A stretch of 64,000 bases of DNA from Halalkaliarchaeum sp. AArc-CO (GTDB lineage: Archaea; Halobacteriota; Halobacteria; Halobacteriales; Haloferacaceae): positions 2,418,001 through 2,482,000 of the forward strand of contig NZ_CP087723.1 of assembly GCF_024972735.1 (NCBI RefSeq), in the 5' to 3' direction. This document shows, one piece after another, positions 14,541-59,541 of the stretch. The translations under genes were made by a program, and so were the position numbers. The number at the start of each line of letters is the position of its first letter. Within the stretch, counting starts at the first letter, position 1. The notes below the pieces were generated by a model. The model was not told the origin of the DNA. It saw nothing but the letters and a program-made list of their open reading frames with translations, and made no database searches.

Positions 14541-15056
14541 CTACTCGGGGAGCAGCACGCCGTCGATGACGTGGATGACGCCGTTGGAGGCCTCGATGTC
14601 GGGGGCGACGATCTCGGCCTGGCTGTCGTTCAGTTCGAGGCCATCGACGGTTACGTCCTCACCGTTTAGCATTCCGACGCGTGGTGCGTTGACGACGGAC
14701 TCCGAGTACCGGCGGCCCGAAGTGACGTGGTACAGGAGGATGTCCGCGAGGTTTTCGAGTTCTAATAGCTCTTCCACTTCGACTTCCAGTGCATCGGCCA
14801 GTTCTTCGAAGGCCTCATCCGTTGGCGCAAAGACGGTCAACTGCCTGTTCCCGCTCAACGCGCCCACGAGACCGGCCTCCTGGACCGCCGCTACAAGTAT
14901 ATTGAAGTCGTCGGCCGCGACTGCGACATCGACGATCGTATCATCCCCCCGCGCACCGGATCGACCCCTCGCTGCTGCCGTCCCGACGCCGCCGGTCAGT
15001 GCAATTCCCAGTCCCGCCACCGTCCGCAGTACGTTTCGTCTGTTAATTTGTGTCAT
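14541..15056 (-). CDS. Secreted fasciclin-domain protein
   Basis: The 171-residue protein has a twin-arginine signal (INRRNVLRTVAGLGIAL, then AAARG). One fasciclin (FAS1) domain follows, with the H1 box LTVFAPTDEAFEEL and the H2 region SNGVIHVIDGVLLP. YHVTSGRRYS precedes the second half. FAS1 domains mediate adhesion at cell surfaces; the ligand is unknown here. It stands convergent to cysK. No lipobox is seen, so it is probably released or held weakly at the surface. Confidence 0.9.
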   Translation of the reverse strand: MTQINRRNVLRTVAGLGIALTGGVGTAAARGRSGARGDDTIVDVAVAADDFNILVAAVQEAGLVGALSGNRQLTVFAPTDEAFEELADALEVEVEELLELENLADILLYHVTSGRRYSESVVNAPRVGMLNGEDVTVDGLELNDSQAEIVAPDIEASNGVIHVIDGVLLPE

Positions 15057-15132
15057 GGTATATTACCACAACATATAGAGGGTTTTGAAAAACATATCCC
15101 GAGCGCCTGACCAGTCAGGATACCGGTCGCTC

Positions 15133-15215
15133 ATACTGATTATTCTCGGCTGTAACCGGACGGTCGGCGGGCCGGGTGGCCGATCGACCGGGAAATCGCT
15201 ACAATAATCAGTATC
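15133..15215 (-). repeat. 83-bp repeat element, copy 1, at the 3' end of znuB
   Basis: The segment aligns without gaps to the reverse complement of 59443-59525, with 65 of 83 bases equal by hand count. Its ends are a perfect 12-bp inverted repeat, ATACTGATTATT (15133-15144) and AATAATCAGTAT (15203-15214). Read in the direction of the upstream gene, the element begins inside the znuB stop codon (15216-15214). The second copy likewise begins in the stop codon of an MFS gene. It may be a miniature transposable element or a 3'-UTR structure. Confidence 0.75.
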
Positions 15216-16401
15216 AGTGCATCGAGATCGACGCCATCGACCGGTCCGAGACGGCGATCGCGAGCAGGTAGATCCCGATCGCGACGACGATGATCGACCC
15301 GCCCGGCGGGAGGCTCGCCGCGATCGCGAACGCCAGCCCACCGAGTACCGAAAACTGCCCGAACAGAACCGAGAGGAACAGCGTCTCCCGGAAGCTGTGG
15401 GCTACGTGCGAGGCGGCTGCGACCGGAATCACCAGCAGTCCGGCGACGAGGATCACGCCGAGGATCTGCATCGCGCCCACGACGACGACGGCGGTCATTA
15501 CGATCAACAAGGCGTTGTACCATCGGACGTTCAGCCGGGCCACCCGTGCGGCCTGTTCGTCGAACGTGATGAACAGAAACTGCTTGTAGTTGTACGCCAC
15601 GAGCGCGACGACCCCGACCGTCATGGCGGCCACCAGCTGGGCCCCCTCGGCGGTGACGATCGCGAGGCTTCCGAACAGGAAATGCTCGATGTCGATCGAG
15701 ATCGCGACGAAGTCCCGCCCCCAGCTGATGAGCAGGGTGCCGACCGCGAAGCTGCCCGTGAGCACGATCGCTACCGGTACGTCGCCGTAGGCGTCGGTGT
15801 GTTCCGCGAGCCACTGGAGCCCGAGCGCCCCCAGCACGCTCACCACCAGCGCGACGAACAGGAGCGATCCCGTCCAGCCGGTCACCGCGATGAACAGGAA
15901 GCCGACCGCGACGCCGGCAAATGCAGTGTGGGCGAGCGTCTCCCCGATCAACGCCATCTGGCGGTGGACCAGGTAGGTGCCGACCAGCGGGCCGACGATC
16001 GCAACCAGCACACCCGTCGCGATCGCCCGCCACATGAACGGGTGCCGGAAGACGTTCGTTCCGAGTAGCCCGTCGAGGCTGGCACCGACCGAGAGGTAGC
16101 GGTCGAACGCGAGCGCGCCGAACACTCCCAGTGCGCCCGGCAACTCGCGGAGCCAGTCGATGCCGATGAACGCGAGCATCGCCGTCGCGAGCACGGCGGT
16201 CAGTCCGATCCCGACGAGTTCGATCAGTTCCCGGGTAGTCCAGCCGCCGATCACCGTGTCGACTGTGGTGTCGGAGGCGCCCACCGGCTGCCGGGATGCA
16301 ACAGTCCCGCCGTCGACCGCCGACTCCCCACCCTCGACCGTCGATCCGTCGCCCTCGACCGTCGATCCGTCGCCCTCGCGTTCGTCGTCTCCCCCCGTCA
16401 T
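15214..16401 (-). CDS. znuB: Zinc/manganese-type ABC transporter permease, system 1
   Basis: The 395-residue protein has about eight to nine helices and the ZnuB/MntB family stretches GTYLVHRQMALIGETLAHTAFAG and VVVVGAMQILGVILVAGLLVIPVAAA. It imports a divalent metal with the ATPase and binding protein encoded directly upstream. An N-terminal cytoplasmic extension of about 60 residues contains the repeat GDGSTVE twice and is absent from the second copy. The start at 16401 overlaps the znuC stop as ATGA. The first 83-bp repeat begins at its stop codon. Confidence 0.92.
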   Translation of the reverse strand: MTGGDDEREGDGSTVEGDGSTVEGGESAVDGGTVASRQPVGASDTTVDTVIGGWTTRELIELVGIGLTAVLATAMLAFIGIDWLRELPGALGVFGALAFDRYLSVGASLDGLLGTNVFRHPFMWRAIATGVLVAIVGPLVGTYLVHRQMALIGETLAHTAFAGVAVGFLFIAVTGWTGSLLFVALVVSVLGALGLQWLAEHTDAYGDVPVAIVLTGSFAVGTLLISWGRDFVAISIDIEHFLFGSLAIVTAEGAQLVAAMTVGVVALVAYNYKQFLFITFDEQAARVARLNVRWYNALLIVMTAVVVVGAMQILGVILVAGLLVIPVAAASHVAHSFRETLFLSVLFGQFSVLGGLAFAIAASLPPGGSIIVVAIGIYLLAIAVSDRSMASISMH

Positions 16402-38054: not shown

Positions 38055-38924
38055 TCACTCCGTGAGTGTGAGCTGTGCGAGGGTGGCGAACAGTGCTTCC
38101 TCCGTCCGCACGACCTCGCTCGCCTGTCGTGGGATCGTGTTCGACCAGAGGTCGAACCCACGGCCGGGTTCGACTGTCCCCTCGACGGTGCGATCCACAC
38201 CGGAGTCCGCCTCCGGGGGGATCTCGTCGGGGGTGATCCCGAGTATTTCCGGAAGCCCGCGCCCGGGCGAGCCGAAGGCGACGGTGAACCCGTCTTGGAG
38301 CTTCGGCGCGAGCGTCGCCAGCCGCGAGATGGTCGTCGGTCGACCGTGTCTCGAGGTGGCGATCCGCGGCTTCGGCCCGCGGGCGAGTGCTTCCGACAGG
38401 TCCGTGGAAACCACCTGAAAGCCCACCTCGGGCTTTTCGGTGATCCGGGCACGGACCGGCTCTCTCGAATCGATTCTGATGGTGACGCGCTCTCCCTCCT
38501 CGAGTTCCATTCCGGTGGGAACGAGGAGCGAGATCGGGTGTTGCAGTTCGCAATTGACCCGAACGCGACCTTCAGGTCCGACCTCAGTCACGATTCCCTG
38601 TGTTGACGACTCGGATCCGTTCGGATCCGAGCCGGCCTCCGACGGAAGCCGAAGCGGCGGGAGTACGCCGGCGTACTGCAACTCGTCGCGTTGTCCCCAG
38701 AGATCCGTTCGGAGTTCCGGGGGCGTCGCGGCGTACCGCAGCACGGTTTCGACGAACTCGCCACCGAGGTGGCGTTCGCCTTCCCGGTCCGGGAAGACGA
38801 CCAGCCTTCTCGCCCCGTACACCGCCGCCGCGCGGGCGACGGTGCCGAGCTTGCGAGTTGCCTCGCGTTTGTCCTCGGCTTCGCGGACGAGCGAGGACGG
38901 CACCAGGATGTGGATACCGTCCAT
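38055..38924 (-). CDS. SPOUT-class RNA methyltransferase, first gene of the ribosomal operon
   Basis: The 289-residue protein belongs to the archaeal/eukaryotic Methyltrn_RNA_3 group (DUF171, COG2106). It has HILVPSSLVREAEDKREATRKLGTVARAA at the start, an internal OB-like insert (GIVTEVGPEGRVRVNCELQHP), and the knotted SAM site TVAFGSPGRGLPEILGI near the end. The group is thought to methylate rRNA. In archaea the gene often leads the uL3 operon. The ATG at 38924 gives the family start; a GTG at 38936 is possible. CCTTTTAGG on the minus strand near 38970 is the operon's TATA box. Confidence 0.85.
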   Translation of the reverse strand: MDGIHILVPSSLVREAEDKREATRKLGTVARAAAVYGARRLVVFPDREGERHLGGEFVETVLRYAATPPELRTDLWGQRDELQYAGVLPPLRLPSEAGSDPNGSESSTQGIVTEVGPEGRVRVNCELQHPISLLVPTGMELEEGERVTIRIDSREPVRARITEKPEVGFQVVSTDLSEALARGPKPRIATSRHGRPTTISRLATLAPKLQDGFTVAFGSPGRGLPEILGITPDEIPPEADSGVDRTVEGTVEPGRGFDLWSNTIPRQASEVVRTEEALFATLAQLTLTE

Positions 38925-58130: not shown

Positions 58131-59444
58131 GTGTTTCGAAACGTAACAGTGGCCGGGTTCGGGAGCTCGATCGGACTGTTGAAGGATCGAGAGTTCGCCG
58201 CCCTCGCGGGAACGGCGTTCGCGAGGAGCCAGGCGTACTCGACGATTCTGATCGCACTGGCGCTGTACGCCGACGCGTTCGGGACCTCCGGCTTCGTCGA
58301 AGGGCTGTTCGGAACTGCCTTCGCGATCGTCCAGCTGTTCGTCGTGTTGCCACTCGGACGGAAAGTCGACACCGGAAACGCGAAGCTGTTCCTGCTTGCG
58401 GGGTTTCTGATCAACGTCGGCGTGTTCGTCGGCTTTATCCTGGTCCAGAACTCGATTCACGTCGTTCTCGTCCGTATGCTCCAGGGCCTCGGCGCGTCGG
58501 TGCTGTGGATTACGGGATCGACGATCGTCGGCGAGATCAGCCCCGACGGCGAGCGGGGACGGTGGCTCGGCTCATACAACCAGTTCGCCTCCTTCTCCTC
58601 GCTGGCGGGCGACGTCGTTGGGGGCTACCTCCTGTACGCACACGGCTTCACCACGACGTACGTTGTGTTGTCGGGCGTCACGCTGGGCGCATTCGTTCTC
58701 GTGTTCGGATTCCTGCGTGACAACCCCGGCGGGAGGAAGGATCCCGATGAGGCAGGCGGCGTCGAGACGTTCCGCGACCTGCTCGACCTGCCGATGCTGC
58801 GTGCGCTGATCGTCTTTCGATTCACGTTCAGCGTAGGAAAGATGGCGGTCATTATCTTCCTCCCGATCTACGCTCGGACGTCGTTCGGCATCTCCGCGTT
58901 CGCGATCGGGTGGATCATGGCGGGCGGGAAGCTAACCAAGGCGCTGACGCAAGGGTTCGTGGGCGATCTCACCGACCGCCTGGGTCACAAACACTACTTT
59001 GTCGCAGTCGGGGCGATCCTCTACGGCCTCGGCACCGGGCTGATTCCGCTTGCCGCGTACTTCGAAGGCCGGATCGAGCCGTACCACGTCTCCTTCTTCG
59101 GTGATTCGATGGTGCTCGGCGGGGCGTTCTTCGCTTTGTTTTCCGCCTACGCAGTGCTCGGGCTCGCCGACAGCATCCGGCTGCCCGCGAGCATGGCGCT
59201 GTTCGTCGAGGAGGGGGAGGCGTACGACTCGGTAGCCTCCAGCATGTCCTTGCGGTCGCTCTCCTGGAAGATCGGCCAGGTTACCGGCCCAGTGCTAGTC
59301 GGGACGACGATGGACTTCGTCTCCACCGAGGCCGGGTTCCTGCTCGCGGCAGGGTTCATCGTCTTTGCCACCGGCGGGTTCACGGTGATGGCATCCCGGG
59401 CACGAACGACCGGCACGTCCGGGGAACCGATCCCCGGTGACTGA
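58131..59444 (+). CDS. MFS transporter
   Basis: The 437-residue protein has twelve hydrophobic segments and the MFS helix 2-3 loop (VVLPLGRKVDTGNAKLFLLAG). GFVGDLTDRLGHKHYFVAVG lies between helices 8 and 9. The start is GTG at 58131, with no nearer ATG in frame. The stop codon is the first part of the second 83-bp repeat. The substrate is unknown; drug or metabolite export is typical. Confidence 0.85.
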   Translation: MFRNVTVAGFGSSIGLLKDREFAALAGTAFARSQAYSTILIALALYADAFGTSGFVEGLFGTAFAIVQLFVVLPLGRKVDTGNAKLFLLAGFLINVGVFVGFILVQNSIHVVLVRMLQGLGASVLWITGSTIVGEISPDGERGRWLGSYNQFASFSSLAGDVVGGYLLYAHGFTTTYVVLSGVTLGAFVLVFGFLRDNPGGRKDPDEAGGVETFRDLLDLPMLRALIVFRFTFSVGKMAVIIFLPIYARTSFGISAFAIGWIMAGGKLTKALTQGFVGDLTDRLGHKHYFVAVGAILYGLGTGLIPLAAYFEGRIEPYHVSFFGDSMVLGGAFFALFSAYAVLGLADSIRLPASMALFVEEGEAYDSVASSMSLRSLSWKIGQVTGPVLVGTTMDFVSTEAGFLLAAGFIVFATGGFTVMASRARTTGTSGEPIPGD

Positions 59445-59525
59445 TGATAATTAGTGTAGTGATTTACCGGTCAGTGGGCCACCCCGTGGGCCGATCGTCC
59501 GGTTACGGCCGAAAATAATCATTAC
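59443..59525 (+). repeat. 83-bp repeat element, copy 2, at the 3' end of an MFS gene
   Basis: Its reverse complement aligns without gaps with 15133-15215, with 65 of 83 bases equal by hand count. As in copy 1, the element begins inside the stop codon of the gene before it, here 59442-59444, and lies in the same orientation to that gene. Imperfect terminal inverted repeats (GATGATAATTA... and ...AAATAATCATTAC) bound a GC-rich middle. Confidence 0.75.
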
Positions 59526-59541
59526 GAGGAACCGGTTCGCG

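Follow-up and report, generated by a model that had tools for sequence, protein, structure and literature searches.

A mobile, nearly palindromic 80-bp element of haloarchaea whose 3-bp target duplication often coincides with a stop codon

INTRODUCTION

The 64,000-nt stretch of the Halalkaliarchaeum sp. AArc-CO genome analyzed here (contig NZ_CP087723.1, positions 2,418,001–2,482,000; referred to below as the window) contains two copies of a short repeat, which are located directly at the ends of two unrelated genes. This raises the question of why a repeat should begin exactly at a stop codon. The sequence-only reading of this DNA had considered two answers, either a miniature element whose end supplies or targets stop codons, or a conserved 3′-UTR structure acting as a terminator or stability element. 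Here, the repeat is compared with its relatives in the same genome, in the sister species, and in other Halobacteriales.

RESULTS

The repeat unit is 80 bp long and is flanked by a duplicated triplet

The ungapped comparison of positions 15133–15215 (copy 1) with the reverse complement of positions 59443–59525 (copy 2) gave 65 identities in 83 positions, exactly the count reported from the sequence alone, and the perfect 12-bp inverted end of copy 1 and the imperfect one of copy 2 were reproduced as well. A BLAST comparison between copy 1 and copy 2 gave an E-value of 2.4e-19, and the next matches in the rest of the window had E-values of at least 0.2, save for a weak match of copy 1 to its own reverse complement. 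This E-value, together with the further copies in the genome described below, rules out a chance match between the two window copies. The overlap of the repeat with the stop codons of both genes was also borne out, but the actual repeat unit is 80 bp plus flanking triplets, rather than 83 bp.

The 80-bp element of copy 1 (15134–15213, minus strand), the canonical left arm of which is at 15213, is supported by a covariance-model match of 97.1 bits, by the 15 other long copies of this genome, and by an empty site in the sister species. The duplicated triplet on its gene side (15214–15216, minus strand) is the TGA stop codon of an ABC-3 family, ZnuB-like permease gene (15214–16401, minus strand; Pfam PF00950, E = 2.3e-54), whose stop is thus the insertion site, as indicated by the sequence, the gene prediction, and the single TGA present in the sister species. 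The far-side TGA duplication is located at 15131–15133 (minus strand), as seen from the sequence and the sister-species empty site, and on the forward strand the element is flanked by TCA on both sides. Copy 2 (59445–59524, plus strand), which is more decayed, gave a covariance-model match of 79.6 bits. Its gene-side duplication (59442–59444, plus strand) is, according to the sequence and the gene prediction, the TGA stop codon of an MFS transporter gene (58149–59444, plus strand; Pfam PF07690, E = 3.1e-41), which again marks the insertion site; the sequence of the far-side duplication (59525–59527, plus strand) is now CGA, with one substitution.

Downstream from copy 1, beside the znu-like transport genes, there is a gene for a fasciclin-domain protein (14541–15056, minus strand). 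Neither copy gave an Rfam match at the gathering score, and no known RNA family was recognized in the repeat. Another part of the window (38476–38575, minus strand) strongly matched (74.7 bits) Rfam RF03135, the L4-Archaeoglobi ribosomal protein leader, in what is apparently a haloarchaeon.

Copies are dispersed, and the loci are not shared with the sister species

The genome to which the window belongs (G000; 3.18 Mb in two contigs) contains 16 long copies as well as shorter remnants. Two of the deletion remnants, 9 bp (L048, near position 1500) and 42 bp long (L091, 1504–1545), are each located directly after a predicted TGA stop. When 40 genomes including G000 were searched, matches were found in three, which were G000 itself, the sister species G001 with 13 long copies, and G002 with a weak match; G001 was the sole other genome of the same genus among the 40. 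Hence, the further copies for which a search had been proposed exist both in the genome and in a relative. The flanking triplets are identical in 12 of the 16 copies of G000 and in seven of the 13 copies of G001, one of which (L037) has GAT as the repeated triplet as aligned.

For the comparison of orthologous sites, the flanks of 14 G000 copies were sought in G001 and those of 12 G001 copies in G000, which recovered loci of ∼3 kb for 12 and six copies, respectively. The element was absent from all of the orthologous loci in the sister species (0/12 and 0/6), and the best ungapped identity of these 18 loci to the 80-bp consensus was 34–42 of 80 positions, compared to 77 and 66 in two true copies. 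For two empty sites, both flanks could be aligned cleanly. The sequence at znuB is CAC-TGA-GCGG in G001 (L094) and CAC-TGA-[80 bp]-TGA-GCGA in G000 (L001), while in the reverse direction G000 (L112) reads CAC-TGA-AGC and G001 (L039) reads CAC-TGA-[80 bp]-TGA-AGC. Each of these insertions is within a stop codon, which it duplicates, and the two arose on different branches. In the remaining 16 loci the far side was diverged or unaligned, and there the absence of the element is visible at a resolution below that of the exact junction. These data confirm that the repeat is a cargo-less, nearly palindromic mobile element of 80 bp with a 3-bp target duplication (TGA/TCA). The proposal of a miniature element thus stands with regard to its mobility, seen in the copies, the 3-bp duplication, and the empty sites, and to the stop codon as its target site; the stop is not supplied by the element.

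Other genomes also indicated activity. Eight identical copies are present in G100, and the 4.6-Mb genome G438 contains 413 matches to the element end motif, compared to none in the controls, which suggests about 200 copies. Both observations imply that the element has been active. In the locus L173 (1438–1598) an 80-bp copy is nested within a small element of the kind described at the end of the Discussion, the insertion site being a TNA (TTA on the left, TCA on the right), which together with the identical copies of G100 speaks for mobility.

The absence of the element from every orthologous locus examined in the sister species makes a conserved 3′-UTR device unlikely. According to this explanation, a terminator or RNA-stability structure would be maintained by selection at gene ends, and the position of the copies at gene ends is consistent with it, as is the folding of copy 1, which as DNA is better than that of shuffled sequences (z = −3.8). 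Copy 2, on the other hand, does not fold better than its shuffles (z = −0.75). The T-run terminator pattern is absent around copy 1, although the consensus for this pattern is of the bacterial type and the host is archaeal. The same orientation to the upstream gene, which had been reported for the two window copies, is correct for these two, but in the family either arm may face the gene: the two arms did so in eight versus three cases in G000, in two versus two in G001, and in 25 versus 21 in the genus g42. Therefore, this part of the earlier proposal was not upheld, and we consider a selected 3′-UTR structure very improbable.

The element has a constant form and is widespread in Halobacteriales

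The element consists of two ∼35-bp arms arranged head to head, each with a terminal TAnnG...TTGTA sequence, followed by a TTACCGG-like motif and a GC-rich stem. The arms are complementary over 31 pairs, with 89% of cells paired, and changes on both sides were observed in 19 of the 31 pairs. This complementarity, which is kept across genera, could be taken to support a structure functioning in the 3′-UTR, but it is equally expected from terminal inverted repeats, and the covariation fits inverted ends and a hairpin alike, as both would produce it.

A covariance model built from the G000 and G001 copies reported the element for 31 of the 170 genomes searched in the family, which represent 10 of 28 genera (E up to 0.01, own genome included). 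The second model, built from five genera, reported relatives for 148 of the 392 Halobacteriales genomes, spread over 45 of 96 genera (own genome included), at E-values up to 1e-4, the calibration of which is rough. Single loci taken from 25 further genomes were nearly all 77–80 bp long, and most had matching or near-matching TNA triplets. No element was found in phages. The 111 and 68 matches in viral contigs did not contain an 80-bp pair in 156 loci, and look like chance matches in AT-rich DNA, while the exact core pattern had a single match across genome contigs, which was in a bacterium and was taken as chance.

The duplicated triplet is frequently a stop codon

The coincidence of the duplicated triplet with stop codons was counted using gene predictions based on codon usage, with the window as the training set; these calls are uncurated, which affects the counts and the null expectations alike. 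The duplicated triplet coincided precisely with a TGA stop for 11 of the 16 copies in G000 and for four of the 13 in G001. In the main sample, which comprised copies from other genomes of the family, it was a stop in 57 of 78 copies (73%); these were obtained from 89 loci after dropping 11 without a clean element, including L131 and L168, which had earlier been counted as stops. Among the best copies from the further genomes of the order-wide search, 12 of 25 were exactly on a stop, with L445, which is from the own genome, left out and L450 counted as a non-stop though it is a stop. In G438, from which 20 loci were fetched, 11 with clean copies and nine without, the retrained predictor placed five of 12 copies exactly on a stop. 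The main and G438 sets required matching triplets and are no measure of duplication decay. In addition, four copies counted as non-stops in the main sample (L160, L180, L223, and L225) have long coding frames that end at the duplicated triplet. The pooled data showed exact coincidence with a predicted stop in 89 of 144 copies. The overlap with a stop thus holds for these 89 copies, while the orientation is not fixed. The RefSeq annotation agrees in one case, that of a Halomicrobium mukohataei plasmid, where a GH2 glycoside hydrolase gene ends at the TGA of the element; two other plasmid copies do not coincide with the end of an annotated gene, the gene table used there being incomplete.

The element prefers the target CTGAG. 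This 5-mer was found in 45 of the 78 copies of the main sample and in 10 of the 21 that were not called as stops, and the duplicated triplet was almost always TGA or TCA, with TTA in one of the 78. The sampled DNA contained 56 non-coding CTGAG sites, namely 21 stops, three sites up to 60 bp downstream from a stop, and 32 in other positions. With all non-coding sites taken as equal and the observed 5-mers used as weights, the expected share of copies on stops is 27%, far below the 73% observed (P = 6e-17), while among sites at a stop or up to 60 bp after it 69% exact stops would be expected, compared to 57 of 66 observed (P = 0.001); these null figures are rough, as the non-coding set includes missed genes. 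The difference between 27% and 73% means that either a loss of those insertions that are not at gene ends or some active preference must be assumed.

The explanation that we prefer, with a probability of roughly three in four, is that of a non-autonomous element of the cut-and-paste type, whose phase relative to stop codons results from the target motif, the duplication of the stop, and purifying selection. A transposase acting in trans would cut 3 bp apart at CTSAG (target C-TNA-G, nearly always with TGA or TCA). When the cut is within an in-frame TGA stop, the duplication would put TGA at both junctions and the gene would keep its own stop; such an insertion would be harmless because the duplication rebuilds the stop. 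Insertions elsewhere, within genes and probably in promoters, would be lost, this selection step being assumed. If so, the motif and the position at gene ends explain most of the stop phase, and a modest excess remains. This excess of exact stops, which persists even in comparison to near-stop sites (P about 0.001), is an observation against the preferred explanation. As only 21 of the 56 non-coding CTGAG sites are stops, that explanation was weighed lower and active targeting higher.

Active targeting could involve recognition of a longer context (GAC-TGA-G), or coupling to translation termination or mRNA 3′ ends. Besides the two excesses over the null expectations, it is supported by the bases preceding TGA, which were G, A, and C in 13, 14, and 16, respectively, of 20 copies not called stops, several of which are possibly stops of missed genes. 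A further argument comes from the element ends: 200 of the 208 arms have a stop in the frame of the duplicated TGA at a distance of up to 15 nt, compared to six and none in the other frames, while in shuffled arms stops were found within 15 nt in 38%, 32%, and 33% for the three frames. These counts are not independent because the end sequences are homologous, and they amount to one observation repeated, which is kept in several genera. Moreover, copies are found at CTSAG-like sites of both kinds, stops and non-stops, the CTGAG sites near gene ends comprise 21 exact stops and only three others, and the share of stops is lower in G438 and G001. We therefore regard active targeting as unlikely, and loss of insertions elsewhere as the better account.

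No longer element with the same ends was recognized among the matches listed

The driver of the element was sought among longer sequences with the same ends. The pattern matches listed for G000 and G001 included no autonomous copy, and those listed for G100, G095, and G086 no inward-facing end pair at insertion-sequence distance. Of 30 loci, which came from 14 of 19 genomes, 25 contained an arm pair, spaced 78–80 bp in 23 cases, 69 bp in one, and 100 bp in one, and five did not. Similarly, 28 of 30 loci from G438, G337, G422, and G465 contained a 77–80-bp pair, several of these loci representing opposite ends of a single copy, and an apparent 2.3-kb end pair was rejected as a longer element because it consisted of two separate 80-bp copies. 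When TNA-flanked end pairs were counted in 364 haloarchaeal and other loci (1.1 Mb), the distances peaked at 80 bp (196 pairs), with 24 pairs at 79 bp. At least 23 pairs were longer than 100 bp, some of which were two neighboring elements or involved the second element type described at the end of the Discussion. Element-like ends were not found at any of 30 places examined, out of 67 with a PF01609 transposase in six genomes; several of these had no clear ends, and the clearest target duplications there were mostly 8 bp.

Among the matches listed, and in loci of ∼3 kb, a longer version of the element was not recognized; the driver may be encoded elsewhere. IS1031-type IS5 and PIF/Harbinger elements also duplicate a TNA target, and a DDE enzyme is therefore the best guess for the driver. 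A different possibility is single-strand mobilization, in which the whole 80-nt hairpin is recognized, as in REP/RAYT or IS200/IS605 systems. Whole-hairpin recognition would account for the constant length of ∼80 bp, which is unusual for deletion-derived MITEs. This explanation agrees with the length of 77–80 bp in nearly all copies read, with the second element type, which has another interior and shares the length and ends, and with the fact that no autonomous element with these ends was seen among the matches listed. The clean 3-bp duplication at the two empty sites speaks against it, as such a duplication is typical of DDE rather than HUH enzymes. Single-strand mobilization thus seems improbable to us, more so than active targeting, and the cut-and-paste explanation is retained.

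DISCUSSION

The TNA duplication of the element (TGA/TCA, rarely TTA) is shared with IS1031-type IS5 and PIF/Harbinger elements, while no such transposase was linked to the ends of the element, as the 30 examined PF01609 loci, out of 67, have no element-like ends and their clearest duplications are mostly 8 bp. ERIC, RUP, and Correia elements are short palindromic mobile elements of bacteria, which are intergenic, present in high copy number, and flanked by TA duplications; to our knowledge, they have no phase relative to stop codons. The 80-bp element is also short, palindromic, and mobile, but differs from them in its 3-bp duplication, its archaeal hosts, and its stop-codon phase. The ERIC and Correia elements are also covered in a review (PMC10969869).

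The element works like a MITE whose parent transposon is missing. MITEs such as MITEAba12 are short and transposase-free, with inverted ends, a target duplication, and many copies (PMC6382973; PMC10969869), and prokaryotic MITEs are normally intergenic (PMC10969869). The same features are seen here, namely the small size without a transposase gene, the paired arms as terminal inverted repeats, the TGA duplication with clean empty sites, and the many dispersed copies, which were 16 and 13 long ones in the sister species and the 413 end matches of G438. The differences are that no parent transposon with these ends was seen among the matches listed, that the length is nearly constant across genera, and that the duplication coincides with stop codons, a term that is absent from the main text of the MITE review (PMC10969869). 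Closest in host and size are the SMRs of Haloquadratum walsbyi, which are 80 to about 110 bp long, with inverted ends unrelated to known transposons and a mobilization called “enigmatic” (PMC3119063). For both, the driver is missing. SMRs reportedly insert into other mobile elements without duplicating the target, and one of them, the SMR-B HqIRS41, is 80 bp long (PMC3119063). The 80-bp element differs from the SMRs so described in that it makes a 3-bp duplication and is mostly located at gene ends, with 89 of 144 copies at predicted stops and one copy seen nested in another element. The literature search, which had most subscription journals outside its reach, found no account of stop-codon docking by a mobile element or of the 80-bp element.

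We tentatively propose, with somewhat less than even confidence, that a widespread transposition system of Halobacteriales moves cargo-less hairpins of ∼80 bp into CTNAG, with the TGA stop as a safe harbor and backup stops in frame. If this is true, the stop is restored through the 3-bp duplication, and the backup stops in the element ends are almost exclusively in that frame. The element shows how low-harm spread can be achieved in gene-dense genomes, as the target triplet doubles as the stop and exactly this triplet is duplicated. It may be regarded as the predicted footprint of an archaeal transposase, and its constant length poses a concrete question on the mechanism. The element could also serve as a marker for gene ends and recent insertions in haloarchaea, and accounts for a class of interspersed repeats overlooked by gene annotation.

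A second palindromic type, 77–78 bp long, occurs beside the 80-bp element and has the same TACTG ends, with another interior that by eye is unrelated. Copies were seen at L141:2381–2458, L142:1374–1451, L142:2000–2077, L167:2513–2590, L210:2542–2618, and L450:63–139, and the flanking triplets match in three of these six.
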